From: a virus
IMG/VR virus record: IMGVR_UViG_3300030202_002285
Coordinates: 7,313 to 31,225 of that record
Reading direction: 5' to 3' (one strand)
Length of the DNA stretch: 23,913 nucleotides
Part shown: piece after piece, positions 3,812-23,115 of the stretch
Position numbering within the stretch: position 1 is the first letter of the stretch
Layout: each line of letters opens with the position of its first letter
Notes under the pieces: model-generated
Databases searched by the model: none
The model's input: only the letters and a program-made list of their open reading frames with translations
What the model was told of the DNA's origin: nothing
Position numbers and translations under genes: made by a program

Positions 3812-6171
3812 TGTCAAAGAAAAAAGCAGAAAGAGTAAGACAAATATTTAATACTGTAAATGGCAATACTAGGTCAAGATGGGAATCTGTAAATCAAAAA
3901 GCATATGATTTTGCTAATGATAATCAATTATCACAAGATGAAAGAATAGCATTAGAAGAACAAGGTATGCCTACATTTACTATTAATAGAATTTCTCCTG
4001 TAGTAGAAATGTTAAATTTTTATGCTACTGCAAATAATCCTAGATGGCAAGCTATTGCTTCTGAAGGTAGTGATACAGATGTTGCGGGTGTTATATCAGA
4101 CTTAGCAGATTATATATGGTATAATTCTGAAGGAGGATGTTTATACTCCAACGCTATTAATGATGCTGTAACTAAATCAATAGGTTATCTTCAAGTAGAT
4201 GTAGACCCTAATCAAGACTTAGGTATGGGAGAGGTTATTATTAAACAACCAGAACCATTTGATGTTTATGTTGACCCTAAATCTAGAGATATGCATTTTA
4301 AAGACGCTGGATTTATAATGGTTAGAAAGTTAGTTCCAAGAGACCATTTAAAAGAATTATTTCCTCAGTTTAAATCAAAAATTACTAAATCTAATAGTAA
4401 TGAAAACTTTGAATATACTTATTCTAATAAAGACAGAGGAGAAGAACAAGTAGACTTTACTTATAAAGATATAGGCTCAGAATCTATTGATCCATTAACT
4501 GGAGAAAAAGATGATATACTTGAGTTATTTGAATTGTTTGAAAAAATAAAAATAGAATACACTAATGTATTTTATAAGATACCTGTTAATAAAGAACAAT
4601 TAGCAAAAATACAAGAACAGGTACAAGTTAAATTAGCTGAAGTAAGTAAAGAACAAGCTGTAGTTTTAAAAGAACGAGTTTCTAAAATGCAAAAAGCTGT
4701 TCAGTCTGGAGATATGCTACCAGAAAGAATGCAACTAGAATTAGAAAAAGCACAAAAAGAACAACAAGCTGAGTTACAACAAATACAACTTCAATATCAA
4801 AGTCAATTACAAAGAGAACAAGAAAAAACTGCTAATGTTATTATCTCTAAAAAAGAGTACGACCTTATGGTTAAAAATAAAGTAGACTTTGTTAAGAATA
4901 TTATTAATGTTGTTCCTTTCTTTCAATCAAGAGTTAAACAAACTTGTGTTATTGGTGATCAAATGCTTTATGAAACAGTTTTACCTGAAAAGATTACAGA
5001 GTATCCTATTGTTCCTATACATTTTAAATGGACAGGTACTCCTTATCCTATGAGTGCAGTTTCACCTTTAGTAGGAAAACAACAAGAAATTAATAAATCT
5101 CATCAACTTTTAATACACAATGCTTCTTTAGGAAGTAGTTTAAGATGGATGTTTGAAGAAGGCTCTGTAGATACTGATTACTGGGAAAGATATTCTAGTT
5201 CTCCTGGTGCATTGCTACCTATTAGACCTGGTTCTCAACCTCCTACTCCTGTTCAACCTGCTCCTTTAAATAATGCTTTTTATCAAATAGTTCAAAACTC
5301 TAAACAAGATATGGAATATTTAGCAGGTATTTATTCTTCTATGATGGGAGATACTGGAGGGCAGCATGAAACATATAGAGGTATGTTAGCTACTGATGAG
5401 TATGGAACACGAAGAATTAAACAATGGTTAAAAAATAGTATTGAGCCTTCCCTAAAACAATTAGGTACTGTAGTAATGCAGTATGCTCAATCTGTTTATA
5501 CTGCTCATAAAGTATTTAGAATAGTTCAACCTAGTGCTTTGCAAGAAGGAAGAGATGTTGAGATGAATGTTCCTTTATATAGTGATAAGGGTAAAGCTAT
5601 AGGTAAATCTTTAGATATAACTACAGCTAAGTTTGATATTAGAATTATAGCTGGTTCTACAATGCCTATAAATAGATGGGCTTATTTAGATGAGCTAAAA
5701 CAAATGCTACAATTAGGAGTTATTGATGATGTGGCTTTATTGGCTGAAACTGACTTAAAAGATAAAGAAGCTATTGCTAAGAGAAAAAGTTTATATTCTC
5801 AGTTATCTGGACAAGTTAAAGGAGCTCAGTCTACAATAAAAGACCAGGCTGGTACAATAGAAACTCTTGAGAGGCAAGTAGTTCAAGCAAACATAAGAAT
5901 GAAAGTTATGGCTGCTGAAATGGAAGTCTTTAAAAAGAAAGAAGAGGCTAAGGGCAAGATACAAAGAGCTCAATCTTCTGTAGAGGATAATGCTAAGCAA
6001 GAAAGAGCAAAGCAAAAATCTACTACAGATATGCTTCTTTCTAAATTAGGAGATACAGTCAATAGGACTGAAAGAAATTTAGGAGCATCTATGGCAGATG
6101 CCGATAAACGAATGCAAGAAAATGCAAGAGAGCAACAAAAAAGTGTTGCTAAAGAAAATAATAAGTCTTAA
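3811..6171 (+). CDS. portal protein, P22-like family
   Basis: The dodecameric ring at the capsid vertex through which DNA enters and leaves. I start it at ATG 3811, preceded by GGAGAGG (3801-3807); the frame extends to a TTG at 3799, which lies inside the previous gene and has no ribosome site. The 786-aa product has the usual P22-type opening: a helix with W24, a Q/DER stretch, then PTFTINRISPVV (54-65). The core clip/wing sequence includes the YPIVPIHFKWTG region and a region ending YRGMLATDEYGTRRIKQWLK. Two extra features stand out: a highly charged Gln/Glu/Lys coiled coil of about 80 residues (roughly 260-342) inserted in the middle, and a long C-terminal coiled coil (roughly 670-780), the place of the barrel in P22. 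Confidence 0.9.
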   Translation: MSKKKAERVRQIFNTVNGNTRSRWESVNQKAYDFANDNQLSQDERIALEEQGMPTFTINRISPVVEMLNFYATANNPRWQAIASEGSDTDVAGVISDLADYIWYNSEGGCLYSNAINDAVTKSIGYLQVDVDPNQDLGMGEVIIKQPEPFDVYVDPKSRDMHFKDAGFIMVRKLVPRDHLKELFPQFKSKITKSNSNENFEYTYSNKDRGEEQVDFTYKDIGSESIDPLTGEKDDILELFELFEKIKIEYTNVFYKIPVNKEQLAKIQEQVQVKLAEVSKEQAVVLKERVSKMQKAVQSGDMLPERMQLELEKAQKEQQAELQQIQLQYQSQLQREQEKTANVIISKKEYDLMVKNKVDFVKNIINVVPFFQSRVKQTCVIGDQMLYETVLPEKITEYPIVPIHFKWTGTPYPMSAVSPLVGKQQEINKSHQLLIHNASLGSSLRWMFEEGSVDTDYWERYSSSPGALLPIRPGSQPPTPVQPAPLNNAFYQIVQNSKQDMEYLAGIYSSMMGDTGGQHETYRGMLATDEYGTRRIKQWLKNSIEPSLKQLGTVVMQYAQSVYTAHKVFRIVQPSALQEGRDVEMNVPLYSDKGKAIGKSLDITTAKFDIRIIAGSTMPINRWAYLDELKQMLQLGVIDDVALLAETDLKDKEAIAKRKSLYSQLSGQVKGAQSTIKDQAGTIETLERQVVQANIRMKVMAAEMEVFKKKEEAKGKIQRAQSSVEDNAKQERAKQKSTTDMLLSKLGDTVNRTERNLGASMADADKRMQENAREQQKSVAKENNKS

Positions 6172-6190
6172 ATTAACAACATTTAATTTA
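6169..6190 (+). promoter_or_regulatory. AT-only inverted repeat at the portal stop codon
   Basis: TAAATTAA (6169-6176) and TTAATTTA (6183-6190) form a perfect 8-bp dyad with a 6-base loop, beginning at the portal stop and ending just before the scaffold's AAGGAG site. Being all A/T it is weak as an RNA hairpin and could be chance in such AT-rich DNA. Confidence 0.35.
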
Positions 6191-6203
6191 TAAGGAGAGA
6201 AAC

Positions 6204-7112
6204 ATGGACCAAGATACAAGTAACCCAGATACTTTGCCTTCCGATAACAAAGAAGCACAAAATGAAGTATTTGGCTCTAGTACCGAGTTCTTTGAACAAT
6301 TGGAGCAGGAAGTCAATGGAGGCGTAGATGATAGCCTTCTTGAACAAATGAACCAAGCACCCCCTGAGGCGAGAAATGAACCCCCTGTCTCAAACGAGGG
6401 CCCTCAACAGGCAACCCCTCAAAATATACAGGGCAATAGTAACTCAATCGATTGGGAAAAACGATACAAAGATTCAAGTAGGGAAGCTCAAAAACTTTCG
6501 GCCAAAGTTAAACAGCTAAGACCTTTTGAACCTTTGATGGATGTCATGCGTAAGGATGATGGTTTAGTGACACACATTAAGGACTATTTGCAAAATGGTG
6601 GTTCCCCAGCAAAATCTGTTAAAGAAGAGCTGGGTTTAAATGAAGATTTTCATTACGATCCAAATGAAGCTTTAGATAACCCTGAATCTGATTCAGCTAA
6701 AGTTTTTAATGCGAGCGTTGATAAAGCTGTAGAAACTAAGGTTTCAAAAGCTCTTCAAGAAGAAAATCAGAAAAAAGCTAAAGCAATGGCACAACAAAAA
6801 TTAGCTCAAGAAGCGAATAAGTTTCAAAAAGCTAATAATCTAGATGCTGAGTCAATGAAAGCTGTATTACAAAAAGCATATAAATCAAAATTAACTTTTG
6901 ATGACGCTTATTTACTTTTAAATAAAGGTAAGTCAGCTCAAAATATTGCGAACAATGTAAGACAGGAAGTTGTTCAACAAATGGAAAATGTGCGAAATAT
7001 TCCTCAAAGTGCGAGCCAAACTAACAGTGCGCAGGCAGAAAAAAGTAAGTCCGACCAAATATTTGATAATTTATTAGGTACGGACGAAACTGTAGATAAT
7101 CTGTTCGGTTAG
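6204..7112 (+). CDS. capsid scaffolding protein
   Basis: A 302-residue protein lying between portal and major capsid protein, the standard place for the scaffold that shapes the prohead and is then lost. It begins after AAGGAG (6192-6197). The N-terminal 80 residues are acidic and Pro/Asn/Gln-rich. WEKRYKDSSREAQKL (about 84-98) and then long charged helices with predicted coiled coil follow (about 165-260). The end, DQIFDNLLGTDETVDNLFG, has two amphipathic LLG/LFG repeats that may bind capsid protein. There are no cysteines. Identification is by position and character, since scaffolds diverge fast. The N-terminal coding stretch is markedly GC-rich (about 63% in the row 6361-6420 by hand count), unlike the portal upstream. 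Confidence 0.8.
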   Translation: MDQDTSNPDTLPSDNKEAQNEVFGSSTEFFEQLEQEVNGGVDDSLLEQMNQAPPEARNEPPVSNEGPQQATPQNIQGNSNSIDWEKRYKDSSREAQKLSAKVKQLRPFEPLMDVMRKDDGLVTHIKDYLQNGGSPAKSVKEELGLNEDFHYDPNEALDNPESDSAKVFNASVDKAVETKVSKALQEENQKKAKAMAQQKLAQEANKFQKANNLDAESMKAVLQKAYKSKLTFDDAYLLLNKGKSAQNIANNVRQEVVQQMENVRNIPQSASQTNSAQAEKSKSDQIFDNLLGTDETVDNLFG

Positions 7113-7134
7113 CCTTAAAGATCAGGCTTCCGAA
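7104..7134 (+). promoter_or_regulatory. RNA hairpin across the scaffold stop codon, upstream of the capsid gene
   Basis: TTCGG (7104-7108) pairs with CCGAA (7130-7134), and AGCCT (7111-7115) pairs with AGGCT (7124-7128), separated by a small TT/T internal loop and closed by an 8-base loop. The TAG stop of the scaffold gene (7110-7112) lies in the stem. No T-run follows, so it is not a classic terminator; mRNA processing or stability is more plausible. The function is inference. Confidence 0.5.
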
Positions 7135-7163
7135 TGTAACTCGTAACATAGGAGGACATTAAA

Positions 7164-8687
7164 ATGTCTGATTTATTTAAAACTGGTGATTTATCGCCAG
7201 GCTCGAGTACTGGGATTACTACCCCTGGACTACCTTCTGGTGGAATGGGGAATCCCGATACTGGTGATCTAAGAAGAAAGTATAATTTCGGTGATCGTGT
7301 CTCTGAGTTGTCTATTGCTCAAGATCCTTTTTTTAGGTTCTTAAGTAAGGTTTCTAAAAAACCAACTGACGATCCTCAATTCAAGTTTACCGAAAAAAGG
7401 CATTCTTTTCATAAAAGATATGCTTATGTAACTGCTCATCATACATCAAGTGCTGTAAGTACTGTTGCTGCGACTGTAACTGCAACTGATATTGACGTAG
7501 ATGACGTTTACTATTGGAAAATGGAAGCTGATTACAAAACTGGTGGAAACATCACTTCTGTATATGGTAATGCTAGCAATCAAGTTAATATAGGGTCAAC
7601 AGGCACAAAGCCTGCTTTCTTTATGCAAAATCAAGTTGTTAAAATTAACTTTAATAGCTCATTACCAACAGTATCTTCATACGCAGGAAACGACTATATT
7701 CTTTGTAGAGTAATGGAAGTTACTGATAATGGTGAAGCTGTTATCCTAAAAACTAAAGTTGTTAAAACTTTAAACACAGCAACAAATAACAAGTTATGTT
7801 CATTCAAAGCAACTACTACAAGTATGACTGGTGAGAATGTTAATTCTTTAAGTGACTCATCTTCTGCAGGTATTGAACCTAAGAAGTGTTATGTTGTTGG
7901 AAATGCACATGAAGAAGGTTCTGGGTATCCTGAAACTTGGAAAGATCAGCCTTATTCTACAAGCTATGGTCAAACTCAAATATGGAAAACATCTTGCGCA
8001 ATGACTAACACTGCAAGAGCAACTGCTCTAAGATATGACCAAAATGAGTGGGCTAGAGTATGGAAAGAAAAGCTGATTGAACATAAGTTCGATATGGAAC
8101 AATCTTTATTGTTTGGTGCTCAAGAAAGTAAAGATGGTATTAATTATACCGAAGGTGCTATTAATTGGATTCTAGGAAAAGCTAATATATTTAGTGGATT
8201 CAGCATATCAAGTTATACTGCTGATGATTTCTTAGATGACATGTCTGCATACATGGACCCACGTTATGGTGGTGGTGGTTCAACAGTATTTTTCTGTTCT
8301 ACTGCTGTATATAACTGGTTACATAAATTAGGTGGATACTTCAAAAATAACGTTGAATTATCTTCTAATTTTAGAGCAGATATGGCTATTACAGGCAAAA
8401 AGAAAGTATTCGGTGTTGACATCACTACAATTTCTACTCCTTATGGAGATATGAATGTAGCTAGAAATATTCACTTAGATGGTACTGATATAAGCATACT
8501 TGCTATTGATATGAAGCATGCTGCATACAGACCTCTAGTGGGTAATGGTCTCAACAGAGATACTTCAGTGTACGTTGGTGTTCAAACTCTAGAGAACAGT
8601 GGTATCGATAGACGTGTGGACTTAATCTTAACAGAAGCAGGAATGGAATGGCAAATGCCTGAAGCTCATGCTATCTGGAAATCATAG
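7164..8687 (+). CDS. major capsid protein, SU10/DUF5309-like
   Basis: The 507-aa shell protein, starting after TAGGAGG. Visible family features are a Gly/Pro-rich leader (1-38), then NFGDRVSELSIAQDPFFRF (41-59), an alpha/beta core, and near 266-320 the segment with TQIWKTSCAMTNTA followed by a long helix (EWARVWKEKLIEHKFDMEQSLLFGAQ region). That second segment is typical of the SU10 major-capsid family of HK97-fold proteins. The C-terminal 120 residues hold the DMKHAAYRPL and GVQTLENSGIDRRVDL strands. There is no sign of an N-terminal protease-cleavage partner in the window. It follows the scaffold and precedes the small decoration-like gene by 11 bases, and is presumably the most highly expressed gene here. 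The first ~150 bases are richer in GC than the rest. Confidence 0.9.
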   Translation: MSDLFKTGDLSPGSSTGITTPGLPSGGMGNPDTGDLRRKYNFGDRVSELSIAQDPFFRFLSKVSKKPTDDPQFKFTEKRHSFHKRYAYVTAHHTSSAVSTVAATVTATDIDVDDVYYWKMEADYKTGGNITSVYGNASNQVNIGSTGTKPAFFMQNQVVKINFNSSLPTVSSYAGNDYILCRVMEVTDNGEAVILKTKVVKTLNTATNNKLCSFKATTTSMTGENVNSLSDSSSAGIEPKKCYVVGNAHEEGSGYPETWKDQPYSTSYGQTQIWKTSCAMTNTARATALRYDQNEWARVWKEKLIEHKFDMEQSLLFGAQESKDGINYTEGAINWILGKANIFSGFSISSYTADDFLDDMSAYMDPRYGGGGSTVFFCSTAVYNWLHKLGGYFKNNVELSSNFRADMAITGKKKVFGVDITTISTPYGDMNVARNIHLDGTDISILAIDMKHAAYRPLVGNGLNRDTSVYVGVQTLENSGIDRRVDLILTEAGMEWQMPEAHAIWKS

Positions 8688-8698
8688 GAGGCTTGAAA

Positions 8699-9106
8699 AT
8701 GGCAAACAATATACCATTATATGGTGCTAATAAAGCAGGTGGTGATCTTGGCGACCTTCAAGACTTTGTTGAGGGTTCTATGAAAGTAGCAGAGTATAGT
8801 GCTAATTTAGACGCAAATGCTTCTGATGTAGTAGTTCATACTGCGGCTGCTCAAGGAACTCACATGCTAGGTTACTCTTTATATGTTTCTAATGTAAAGG
8901 GTGCTGCTGGAGATTTCCAAGCCAACATCGAAGTTAATTCAATCGATGGGCCTTTAACAGTTGCTGGTCAATCTGGTGAAGTGTTTGGAGGTGGAGGTGA
9001 GCTTGCAAATACTGAAACAGTTAGCATAGTATTAACAGGTTCTGCTGGAGACACTGCTGATGTAAGAGTGATTGTCTGGGGTTCTGCTAATACTGACCTA
9101 ACTTAG
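8699..9106 (+). CDS. capsid decoration-like protein
   Basis: I start this at ATG 8699, seven bases after AGGAGG (8686-8691); the frame also opens at a TTG (8693) that sits too close to that site. The 135 residues are rich in Ala, Gly, Val and Thr, with alternating hydrophobic residues (VVVHTAA, GYSLYVSNV, VSIVLTG, DVRVIVWG) that indicate an all-beta sandwich. There are no cysteines or helices of note. Its place directly after the major capsid protein, its small size and its beta fold fit a head decoration or cement protein. It could equally be a minor capsid protein. Confidence 0.65.
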   Translation: MANNIPLYGANKAGGDLGDLQDFVEGSMKVAEYSANLDANASDVVVHTAAAQGTHMLGYSLYVSNVKGAAGDFQANIEVNSIDGPLTVAGQSGEVFGGGGELANTETVSIVLTGSAGDTADVRVIVWGSANTDLT

Positions 9107-9116
9107 GAGGTAAACG

Positions 9117-9356
9117 ATGGCAAGTAAATACTGGATAGGCAACGAGCCTTCGAGCGATGTAACTAGTGCGCAAGCCCAAAAGATTGCTGCTGCGCCTGCA
9201 GGTGCTATCACTGATTTAACAGATAGTACAGGTGGAGCGGTGTCTGATACTTGCAACGATACTAGCGCTAATACGAAAGATGATTTAGCGTCTATTATTG
9301 CTAAGGTAAACGGCATAATTGCTGCATTAAGAGCTCACGGAATCGTAGCTGAGTAA
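9117..9356 (+). CDS. head-fibre-like small protein
   Basis: A 79-residue protein with a perfect TAGGAGG ribosome site. It opens with MASKYWIGNEP, has a central GAITDLTDSTGGAVSDT turn (about 29-44), and closes with a helix DDLASIIAKVNGIIAALRAHGI. Small proteins with a LTDSTGG turn followed by a helix of this kind (A-x-I-x-x-x-I-x-A-x-L-x-x-x-G) recur after capsid genes in many tailed phages and are annotated as head-fibre or virion-associated. The function is by that resemblance. Its codons are more GC-rich (GCG, AGC, AAC) than those of the following gene. A structured intergenic gap follows it. Confidence 0.6.
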   Translation: MASKYWIGNEPSSDVTSAQAQKIAAAPAGAITDLTDSTGGAVSDTCNDTSANTKDDLASIIAKVNGIIAALRAHGIVAE

Positions 9357-9367
9357 TAAATAGTCAA

Positions 9368-9414
9368 GGGCGTCACACAGGAAGTCTTCTCTCCCCGCGT
9401 GGCGCCTAAGACTT
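9368..9414 (+). promoter_or_regulatory. GC-rich hairpin with an overlapping alternative stem
   Basis: The longest gap of the window (9357-9429) holds a GC-rich element. GGCGTCAC (9369-9376) pairs with GTGGCGCC (9399-9406) if one G-U pair is allowed, and G9368-U9407 can extend it. A second perfect pairing, AAGTCTT (9382-9388) with AAGACTT (9408-9414), uses the loop of the first and the bases just after it, so the two stems are either alternatives or a pseudoknot. No T-run follows. It lies between the head-fibre gene and the next gene's AAGGA site. Confidence 0.55.
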
Positions 9415-9429
9415 AAATAAAAGGAATAA

Positions 9430-10842
9430 ATGGCACAAACGGTACAACAGACAGTAGAAGCAAGATTAGGAGTATCAATACCTGATGCATCAAATGTAGT
9501 TGAAGTCACAGACTTGGGACAATATATGCAAGATGGTATATCAGAAATATACAGAGGTCTACAAAGGCAAAATGCAGTAGACGAACTTAGATTATTTTTG
9601 GGTAATAGTTCTATATTAAGAACAATGGTAACTGTAGGATGTACTAGTGCTAACCCAGCTGTCTTTGCATCAACAGGACATTACTTTCAAGTTGGTGATT
9701 ATGTTAAGCTTGATAAATTTGTTCAAAATGCAAGCTTAAATGAAACTGTGCAAAAAGTTGCAACAATAGCAACAAATAGTTTTACTCTTGAAAATATTAC
9801 CACAGGAGTACTTGAAACTGGCCCAGGTGGAACAGCTGTAAAATTAAATGAATTTACAGATTACCAAACTAACCCTATAACAGGATTAGAATCAAAATTT
9901 TTTAATACAGGATATGTACTTGTTGAAAGAGCTTTTTCAGAATCTAATAGTACTTTTTCAAAAGAAGGAATGTCCCTTAATTATTATGCTTGTAAAGAAA
10001 TAAGCATTGATAATGCACATAAAGCAACAGACCCTTTATCTGTAGACTTTGCAACTCCTAGAAATCCTGTATACTATAGAAACTCAGAAAATGGAAGTAT
10101 TACTGTTTTACCCGCACCTTCAGCTACTAATTTAGTAAGAGTATGGGGATTAAAAAACTTTAGGGCTATGCCTGCATCAGCTTCTGTTGCAACCTATAGT
10201 GAATTTCCTGATTCTTATTTTCAAGCATTAATATATTATAGTACAGCTCAATCGGCTTTTGCTTATGTATCAAATACTGCAGCTCAATTAAGGGCTTTAG
10301 CACATGGAACCTCTACAACTGTAACTAGGTTAGCAGATACTCCTCCTACAATACCTTATGCTTTAGCTAATACTATAACAGCAGCCCCTCCTGCATTTAA
10401 CAAGCCTACAATTAGTCCTGATTATGCAACTTTAAATGCATTCTTAGCTGATGATGATGCTGAAATGGCTCAACAAGTATCGACTAAAATTAGTCAAGAG
10501 CTACAACAATATGCTCAAGATATACAAAATGAAGTGGGTGAATGGACAGATCAATTTCAAAGATGGCAACAACAAGTTGCTTTTGAGATACAAAATGCGG
10601 ATGGAGATTTACAAGCTTTATTAGGTCAATATCAAAATGAAGTAGCAAGGTTTCAAACAAATGTTCAAACTTATGCTCAAGATATACAACAAGAAGCTTC
10701 AAAAGTTTCAAATTTAATACAAAAACGTTCTGGAGAGTTTACATCATTTAGCAATATAGCTACACTTTATGAAAACAAATTTCAGCAATTTATAATGGCA
10801 CGTATGCCTGCTCAACAAAAAGGAGGAAATAGTGCTAGTTAG
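9430..10842 (+). CDS. virion neck/connector-region protein with C-terminal helical stalk
   Basis: A 470-residue protein starting after AAGGA. Residues 1-60 hold a helical opening (GQYMQDGISEIYRGL). About 60-160 is a beta region with VGDYVKLDKF and TNSFTLENI strands. From about 270 the helical SYFQALIYYSTAQSAFAYV segment appears. Residues about 340-460 are a Gln-rich coiled coil. Within the coiled coil the peptide YAQDIQ recurs 54 residues apart (positions 361 and 415), encoded by an exact 18-base direct repeat. It lies between capsid genes and the adaptor-like protein, so a head-completion or neck role is likely. It ends 11 bases inside the next gene, and its last codons supply that gene's AGGAGG site. 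No enzyme motif is visible. Confidence 0.65.
   Translation: MAQTVQQTVEARLGVSIPDASNVVEVTDLGQYMQDGISEIYRGLQRQNAVDELRLFLGNSSILRTMVTVGCTSANPAVFASTGHYFQVGDYVKLDKFVQNASLNETVQKVATIATNSFTLENITTGVLETGPGGTAVKLNEFTDYQTNPITGLESKFFNTGYVLVERAFSESNSTFSKEGMSLNYYACKEISIDNAHKATDPLSVDFATPRNPVYYRNSENGSITVLPAPSATNLVRVWGLKNFRAMPASASVATYSEFPDSYFQALIYYSTAQSAFAYVSNTAAQLRALAHGTSTTVTRLADTPPTIPYALANTITAAPPAFNKPTISPDYATLNAFLADDDAEMAQQVSTKISQELQQYAQDIQNEVGEWTDQFQRWQQQVAFEIQNADGDLQALLGQYQNEVARFQTNVQTYAQDIQQEASKVSNLIQKRSGEFTSFSNIATLYENKFQQFIMARMPAQQKGGNSAS
10510..10689 (+). repeat. pair of exact 18-base direct repeats coding a coiled-coil unit
   Basis: TATGCTCAAGATATACAA occurs at 10510-10527 and again at 10672-10689, in the same reading frame and 162 bases (54 codons) apart. 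The repeats encode the same YAQDIQ peptide in the C-terminal stalk of the 9430-10842 protein, suggesting partial duplication of a helical unit. Confidence 0.8.
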
Positions 10843-23059: not shown

Positions 23060-23115
23060 GTTTTGAATTTAACAATAAAATTAGTAATTTAATAAACGGA
23101 AATAGGTAAAAATAT
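23060..23115 (+). other. AT-rich spacer before the last gene
   Basis: This 56-base gap is nearly all A/T. It contains a small dyad, AAATTA-G-TAATTT (23078-23090), which is too short and AT-only to call a hairpin. There is no clear promoter box or terminator. The next gene's ribosome site is weak (AGG at 23104). Confidence 0.4.

Follow-up and report, generated by a model that had tools for sequence, protein, structure and literature searches.

Scaffold and capsid proteins must be kept in balance in tailed phages, and the scaffold protein of phage P22 regulates its own synthesis; to our knowledge, the balancing mechanism is established for few phage systems. Mu-gpT-DE RNA, located 3′ of a phage capsid gene, is a candidate structured RNA, and C-rich loops of the RNAIII type bind the Shine–Dalgarno (SD) sequences of target mRNAs. 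Here, we analyzed a 23,913-nucleotide stretch (the window) corresponding to positions 7313–31225 of the 52,329-bp virus record IMGVR_UViG_3300030202_002285. Two plus-strand RNA hairpins, at 7103–7135 and 9362–9413, bracket its capsid genes; the downstream one has a loop complementary to the SD region of an upstream scaffold-like gene.

The icaR mRNA of Staphylococcus aureus is the nearest tested precedent for a loop–SD mechanism of this kind. According to PMC3868564, base pairing between its SD and a UCCCCUG motif in its 3′-untranslated region prevents initiation and leaves the duplex open to RNase III; the same paper mentions RNAIII and other small RNAs with UCCC loops. As in that account, a pyrimidine motif downstream of coding sequence complements an SD of the same transcript. 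Unlike in icaR, the motif sits in a hairpin loop of a late phage operon, three genes (about 3.2 kb) beyond its candidate target, and the pairing is deduced from co-variation. RNAIII-type small RNAs are separate molecules acting on several targets in trans, whereas the loop described here lies within the operon. An excerpt of PMC11354728 describes an intercistronic hairpin in the Rhodobacter puf operon, a structured boundary between products needed in different amounts. A structured boundary inside an operon with unequal product needs is likewise found here; unlike puf as excerpted, this operon has two hairpins, one lying over a stop codon, as well as a loop that co-varies with an SD, all known from sequence alone.

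Among phages, Escherichia phage SU10 has a similar gene order (portal, small gene, scaffold, major capsid protein [MCP], Ig-like gene, terminator, next gene), an MCP of the same Pfam family, and a hairpin after its Ig-like head gene. Unlike the hairpin in the window, that of SU10 has a UUCG loop and a T6 tract and is annotated as a terminator, and the SU10 scaffold stop showed no significant fold (shuffle z-scores of 0.6 and 0.0). Unlike Mu-gpT-DE RNA (RF03012), which is named in an excerpt of PMC7657543, neither hairpin has a counterpart in Rfam: the covariance models, Mu-gpT-DE included, gave no match at gathering score in the window or in 17 relatives. Among the papers listed by a literature search that covered few subscription journals, none dealt with such an element in phages.

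Results

The original prediction had placed three inverted repeats in the intergenic gaps, and all three are present in the sequence. Two of them proved to be real and conserved structures, and the third, an AT-only repeat, lay at chance level. The upstream hairpin (7103–7135) has 6 + 5 bp interrupted by a small internal loop and a folding energy of −14.0 kcal/mol; none of 200 shuffles folded as well as 7100–7140 (z −3.9), 7/200 did so for the wider 7095–7163 (z −2.3), and 7096–7137 was in the lowest 0.5% of 7,957 42-nt windows. It is not purely intergenic, because its 5′ arm consists of the final codons and the stop codon (7110–7112) of the scaffold-like gene. The downstream hairpin (9362–9413), at the end of the capsid block, was more stable (−24.9 kcal/mol; z −4.7 for 9355–9431, with 0/200 shuffles as good), and 9367–9408 ranked first among the 7,957 42-nt windows on each strand; with 65-nt windows on the plus strand, 9351–9415 was only the fourth site. 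Weak Rfam matches by e-value within 6100–9500 fell on neither hairpin. The notion that the exceptional gaps contain inverted repeats held in part: four gaps are at least 20 nt long, and that at 23060–23115 has no significant fold (z 0.05).

Searching viral contigs with seven MCP queries yielded 479, 590, 158, 580, 337, 550, and 598 relatives, and the loci analyzed were the best 80 of each query (158–598 matches per query). The shuffle z-scores and permutation results are computations on these contigs of uncultured marine phages. The window and 257 relatives (258 sequences) were compared over the 3′-terminal 300 nt of the MCP gene and collapsed to 183 distinct loci, of which 27 had <700 nt after the MCP gene, 17 had no gap before the contig end, 16 had a called gap of >200 nt and were assessed apart, and 123 had a usable gap (45–200 nt, after 0–3 small genes). 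The last three of the seven MCP queries provided a held-out set of 185 new loci. The MCP end of 93 was already present in the first set, and 66 were distinct and new; 46 of these had both elements (MCPs 65–95% identical to that of the nearest first-set locus).

The downstream hairpin was a regular feature of these loci. All 123 usable gaps folded better than the shuffle mean (all z ≤ −1.59), with z ≤ −2 in 118 and ≤ −3 in 88, and by eye a strong hairpin was present in the first 130 nt of 14 of the 16 longer gaps (all except L050 and L148). Locus L003, which has 0 genes past the MCP gene and a called gap resembling coding sequence, was dropped from the later counts. The main hairpin reached −15 kcal/mol or lower in 116/122 loci and in 45/47 held-out loci; in a set of 137 loci without the window and L003, it was the strongest 50-nt window of its own locus in 101 and within the top 1% in 131. 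It began a median of 18 nt after the upstream stop and ended 16 nt before the next start, with a median of 19 pairs over a span of about 50 nt, and place and stem were kept despite wide sequence divergence. The loop segments of the 122 hairpins fell into the classes UUCUCUCC (32), CUUCC (31), UUUCUCC (7), and UUCG (22), with some overlap, and 35 belonged to none.

The upstream hairpin was also conserved. The 55-nt stretch around the scaffold-like stop had a median z of −3.38, with z ≤ −2 in 150/179 loci and in 40/65 later-fetched loci, and its stems had a median of 10 pairs spanning that codon. The remaining stop codons of these loci had a median z of 0.15 (z ≤ −2 in 34/1,043), and those of the last capsid-block gene had a median of −0.15 (9/134). 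The protein encoded through the 5′ arm ends in Phe-Gly in 11 of 15 family members, with variants in four. The 8-bp AT-only stem at 6169–6190 was rejected as an RNA element, as its fold is at chance level in the window (z −0.59 for 6160–6203, with 56/200 shuffles folding equally well) and the portal-stop region is unremarkable in relatives (median z −0.28; z ≤ −2 in 13/176). We also rejected the idea, hinted at by single loci, that the upstream gap hides the SD of the MCP gene itself: this SD was below 95% of shuffles in accessibility in only 9% of 182 loci, and in the window it was not sequestered (accessibility quantile 0.83). A weak sequestration effect is conceivable, because MCP SDs were less accessible than the SDs of other gene classes (p 0.04 or less).

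Both elements behaved as sense-strand RNA. Plus-strand folds of the downstream hairpins had 365 G-U pairs versus 23 A-C mismatches, and their reverse complements, folded separately, had 61 versus 95; the upstream hairpins, folded on the plus strand only and without a reverse-complement control, had 276 versus 0. A DNA-level element is disfavored because G-U pairs dominate the plus-strand folds. Compensatory changes, which the original prediction had put forward as its check, were found in both hairpins. With structures taken from one member of each sequence pair, which favors the true register, two-sided changes kept pairing in 33/40 cases downstream (40 disjoint sequence pairs; slid partners, 7–13 of 17–24, or 37–65%) and in 21/25 upstream (69 disjoint sequence pairs; slid partners, 2–6 of 7–15, or 25–43%). 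This comparison excluded any hairpin that failed to reach −12 kcal/mol, any upstream fold with fewer than 7 crossing pairs, and duplicate sequences. Together, these results make the two hairpin structures and their conservation close to certain.

In the window, the apical pyrimidine motif UUCUCUCC of the downstream hairpin (9387–9394, +) is a perfect 8-nt complement of the SD region GGAGAGAA of the scaffold-like gene (6194–6201, +), which makes them a candidate anti-SD loop and its candidate target. Loops of relatives likewise fit their own scaffold ribosome-binding site (RBS), over 9 nt in L006, 10 nt in L242, 11 nt in L035, L036, L046, and L060, and 7 nt in L023, L049, L066, and L079. We compared each locus's own loop–RBS pair with permuted pairs; each 75% MCP cluster contributed a single representative, and 8 draws were made with 300 permutations apiece. 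For pyrimidine loops (41 clusters), pairs with the scaffold RBS averaged −10.57 kcal/mol versus −9.32 kcal/mol after permutation, and 0/300 permutations were as low in each of the 8 draws. The RBSs of the MCP, decoration-like, "fiber," next, and other genes gave no signal with these loops (permutation p 0.37–0.97). With refined start sites, p for the scaffold RBS was 0.0013 for all loops and 0.0001 for pyrimidine loops.

The motifs themselves showed the same association. In the first set, GGAGAG was present in the scaffold RBS of 24/33 loci with a CUCUCC loop versus 0/85 others, and in 2/145 and 5/335 of the other strong-SD genes of those loci; counted by 75% cluster, the figures were 13/18 with the loop versus 0/28 without. 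A FastTree phylogeny of the MCP (118 rows) showed 16 changes of the loop motif and 15 of the RBS motif. Among 10 independent pairs taken from well-supported branches, the RBS followed the loop in 7.5 (mean), opposed it in 0, and was unchanged in 2.5 (sign test p ~0.016). Two smaller loop classes fit their RBS in 5/5 loci each, too few tree pairs to test, and the RBS motifs of these classes, present in 17 and 27 loci in total, are not confined to loci with the loop. The association was repeated in the held-out loci, with GGAGAG in 5/8 scaffold RBSs with a CUCUCC loop versus 1/38 without (p 2e-4) and in 0/8 and 0/38 MCP RBSs; permutation with all loops gave p 0.0057 (75% clusters) and 0.0028 (85%), versus 0.43–0.82 for the MCP control. 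Pooling both sets, GGAGAG was found in 29/41 scaffold RBSs with the loop versus 1/123 without. In the portal RBS, the pooled counts were 3/31 versus 0/77 (p 0.02; 2 of the 3 in the window's clade), with a permutation p of 0.91. The co-variation of loop and scaffold SD, repeated as it is in new loci, is therefore well supported.

Gene identities and neighboring elements

The portal of the window belongs to the P22 portal family (Pfam, E 5e-59). The gene for the 302-aa protein (6204–7112, +) was labeled scaffold-like because of its position between the portal and MCP genes and the SU10-like gene order; the protein had no PHROG match and no significant Pfam match, and it represents a conserved family, of which 15 members were aligned (32–68% identity to that of the window). 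The MCP gene (7164–8687, +) encodes a member of the SU10_MCP family (PF17236, E 1.1e-23). It is followed by a small head gene (8699–9106, +) that is decoration-like by position only and a small 79-aa gene (9117–9356, +) termed head fiber in the original prediction; neither product had a PHROG or Pfam match. The next gene (9430–10842, +) is weakly SU10-adaptor-like (PF24175, E 1.4e-4, under the curated cut-off), and its product, used as a query, found one near-copy.

When 50,697 phage records were searched with the MCP, a single distant match (22.9% identity) was obtained. The sole relative found in a bacterial and archaeal genome collection was L262, a 9,350-bp contig of a Flavobacteriales metagenome-assembled genome, which may be of phage origin and have been binned with that genome; strong SDs argue against a flavobacterial host.

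Relatives carry further elements. A second motif, CUCAUUCAC-GCUU-AGUCA-AGGC-UUAGAG followed by an SD, lies within or close to the gap between the hairpin and the following gene (examples: L178, from about 6088; L185, from about 4218; L009, from about 7504) and was not seen in the window. It occurred as 13 distinct sequences in 32 loci and 0 times on the reverse strand, with its inner stem changed from GCUU/AAGC to GGGA/UCCC in L185 and its outer stem from CUC/GAG to GCAC/GUGC in L178; it had no Rfam match in the 17 relatives scanned and is possibly a riboswitch or leader element. A third element, UCUGAAAUUUGAGAGGUAAUAACUCAAUAUAAGGA, is located directly 3′ of the stop codon that ends the last small head gene (for example, L028 6667–6750, L047 5580–5655, and L078 5888–5968); its inner stem covaries (UUGAG/CUCAA, UCGUG/CACGA), and it somewhat resembles T7-type promoters. 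A T7-type promoter was also considered for the TTTGAGAGGTAATAGCTCAATATAAGGAT element of relatives; a regular expression for TTTGAGAGGTAATAGCTCAATATAAGGAT gave no matches though the element is visible in relatives, so the pattern was too tight. The single-subunit RNA polymerase profile PF00940 had no match in the 52,329-bp record, and 14 control genomes likewise gave none.

Outside the window in the same record (L084 722–1378 and 1375–2370, both −), a ThiF/E1-like gene (PF00899, E 3e-21) adjoins a weak JAB match (PF14464, E 5e-4, below the cut-off), and as judged from these profile matches this is a ubiquitin-like pathway pair in a phage. Downstream of the window (L083 1784–10813, +), a 3,009-aa reading frame is followed by a 961-aa one, whose product had no Pfam match at E 0.01.

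Discussion

The original prediction interpreted the inverted repeats as sites of RNA stability or processing control around the capsid genes. This interpretation gains from the compensatory changes and from a place conserved across a deep family, and it loses the third repeat; differential expression of the capsid block through the hairpins is plausible. Since the loop complements and co-varies with the scaffold RBS and the upstream hairpin overlaps the scaffold stop, our results also point to translational control. Our preferred reading, to which we give about an even chance, is that the hairpins delimit the capsid cistrons as RNA boundary elements, with the downstream loop additionally repressing the scaffold-like gene. 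The two sense-strand hairpins would mark the ends of the capsid segment on a long late mRNA, co-transcription of loop and SD being assumed from gene order, with the downstream hairpin shielding the 3′ side of the capsid cistrons. Its pyrimidine-rich loop would pair with the scaffold SD, either in trans or within one RNA, where the SD lies about 3.2 kb upstream; this would keep ribosomes off the scaffold gene and perhaps create a double-stranded nuclease substrate. Because RNA polymerase reaches the hairpin only after passing the capsid genes, ribosomes would have access to the scaffold gene on young transcripts but not on complete ones, which would limit scaffold relative to capsid protein. 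The stop-codon hairpin may guard the capsid segment from decay or coupling spreading out of the silenced scaffold cistron, and phages with UUCG loops would retain the boundary function only.

Several observations weigh against repression of the scaffold gene by the loop. The scaffold RBS was the best-energy window in 0/89 pyrimidine-loop loci and within the top 5% in 26/89, and in the window it ranked fifth of 26 in duplex energy, behind genes 21896, 343, 12526, and 13381. A nested co-fold model gained nothing from loop–SD pairing, but such a model cannot represent a loop contact; in local folds, the loop motif was 60% unpaired and the scaffold SD 31% unpaired. UUCG loops (22/122) and most GCUUCCCCUCC loops have no match to the scaffold SD, and with all loop types the permutation signal was weaker (p 0.013 for 46 clusters at 75%; 0.038 for 17 clusters at 70%), with the "fiber" RBS at p 0.07. 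Held-out pyrimidine loops alone gave p 0.052 (75%) and 0.014 (85%), and recombinational swapping of the MCP gene alone could mimic the co-switching on the MCP tree. Compared with icaR, a downstream complement to the SD and co-variation were both found, and the SD was not the best-scoring target; the latter property is absent from the published icaR definition, yet it is expected of a single-target regulator. Unique targeting of the scaffold RBS by energy or longest match is not supported. As the energies do not single out the scaffold RBS, the loop may target a few late-gene RBSs in the window's clade, the scaffold RBS being the conserved one. In the window, the RBSs of genes 343, 3811 (portal), 13381, and 21896 also hold GGAGAG and fit the loop by 6–8 nt, and those of the MCP, decoration-like, and small genes are of the AGGAGG type.

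Could the hairpins serve segment stability only? They would then act as barriers to exonucleases and determine how long the capsid segment persists, the loop–SD match being a by-product of pyrimidine-rich loops. Stable stems without a U-tract fit such a barrier, the puf intercistronic hairpin is a precedent in the excerpted account (PMC11354728), and hairpins are kept where the loop lacks complementarity (UUCG, 22/122); for phages with non-complementary loops, we propose segmental stability of the puf type. As the whole explanation we consider it rather unlikely, as it does not predict why the loop should fit the scaffold RBS alone among the RBS classes tested, or why this fit should be repeated in held-out loci.

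A transcription terminator or attenuator without a canonical U-tract, lowering tail-gene transcription at the capsid/tail boundary, would agree with the annotated SU10 terminator (8934–8970; a UUCG stem and then T6) at the equivalent place and with the stable, G+C-rich stem-loops seen in relatives (116/122 at or below −15 kcal/mol). The U-tract after the stem was missing: TTTT occurred within 12 nt of the downstream hairpin in 1/117 loci, the longest T-run reached at least 3 in 4/122, and T content in the following 8 nt was 22.6% versus 28.2% in the rest of the gap. The remark in the original prediction that neither hairpin has a terminator-like T-run was correct. Such a terminator would also leave the loop match and the stop-codon hairpin unexplained, and we regard it as distinctly improbable; the downstream hairpin may descend from a terminator whose U-tract disappeared. 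RNase III sites releasing a capsid mRNA would suit the long downstream stems (median 19 pairs, span about 50 nt). Classical RNase III substrates are longer than the stems of ~10–13 pairs seen here, and cleavage is very unlikely as a shared function because the upstream stems (median 10 pairs) and the UUCG hairpins (about 12–13 pairs in listed examples) are too short.

We return to pairing of the loop with the scaffold SD. Its fullest form, which we offer tentatively and would not bet on, is a cis-encoded RNA timer of assembly in uncultured marine phages with SU10-type capsids: after transcription of the capsid genes, an anti-SD loop would shut down translation of the scaffold gene, the stop hairpin would keep the capsid cistrons intact, and RNA structure alone would set the scaffold:capsid ratio, with loop and SD re-matched repeatedly during divergence. 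The structured RNA elements described here match no Rfam family at gathering score. If the proposal is true, riboregulation between a 3′ region and an SD would extend to phage assembly, and a conserved pair of RNA elements could directly balance scaffold against capsid protein.

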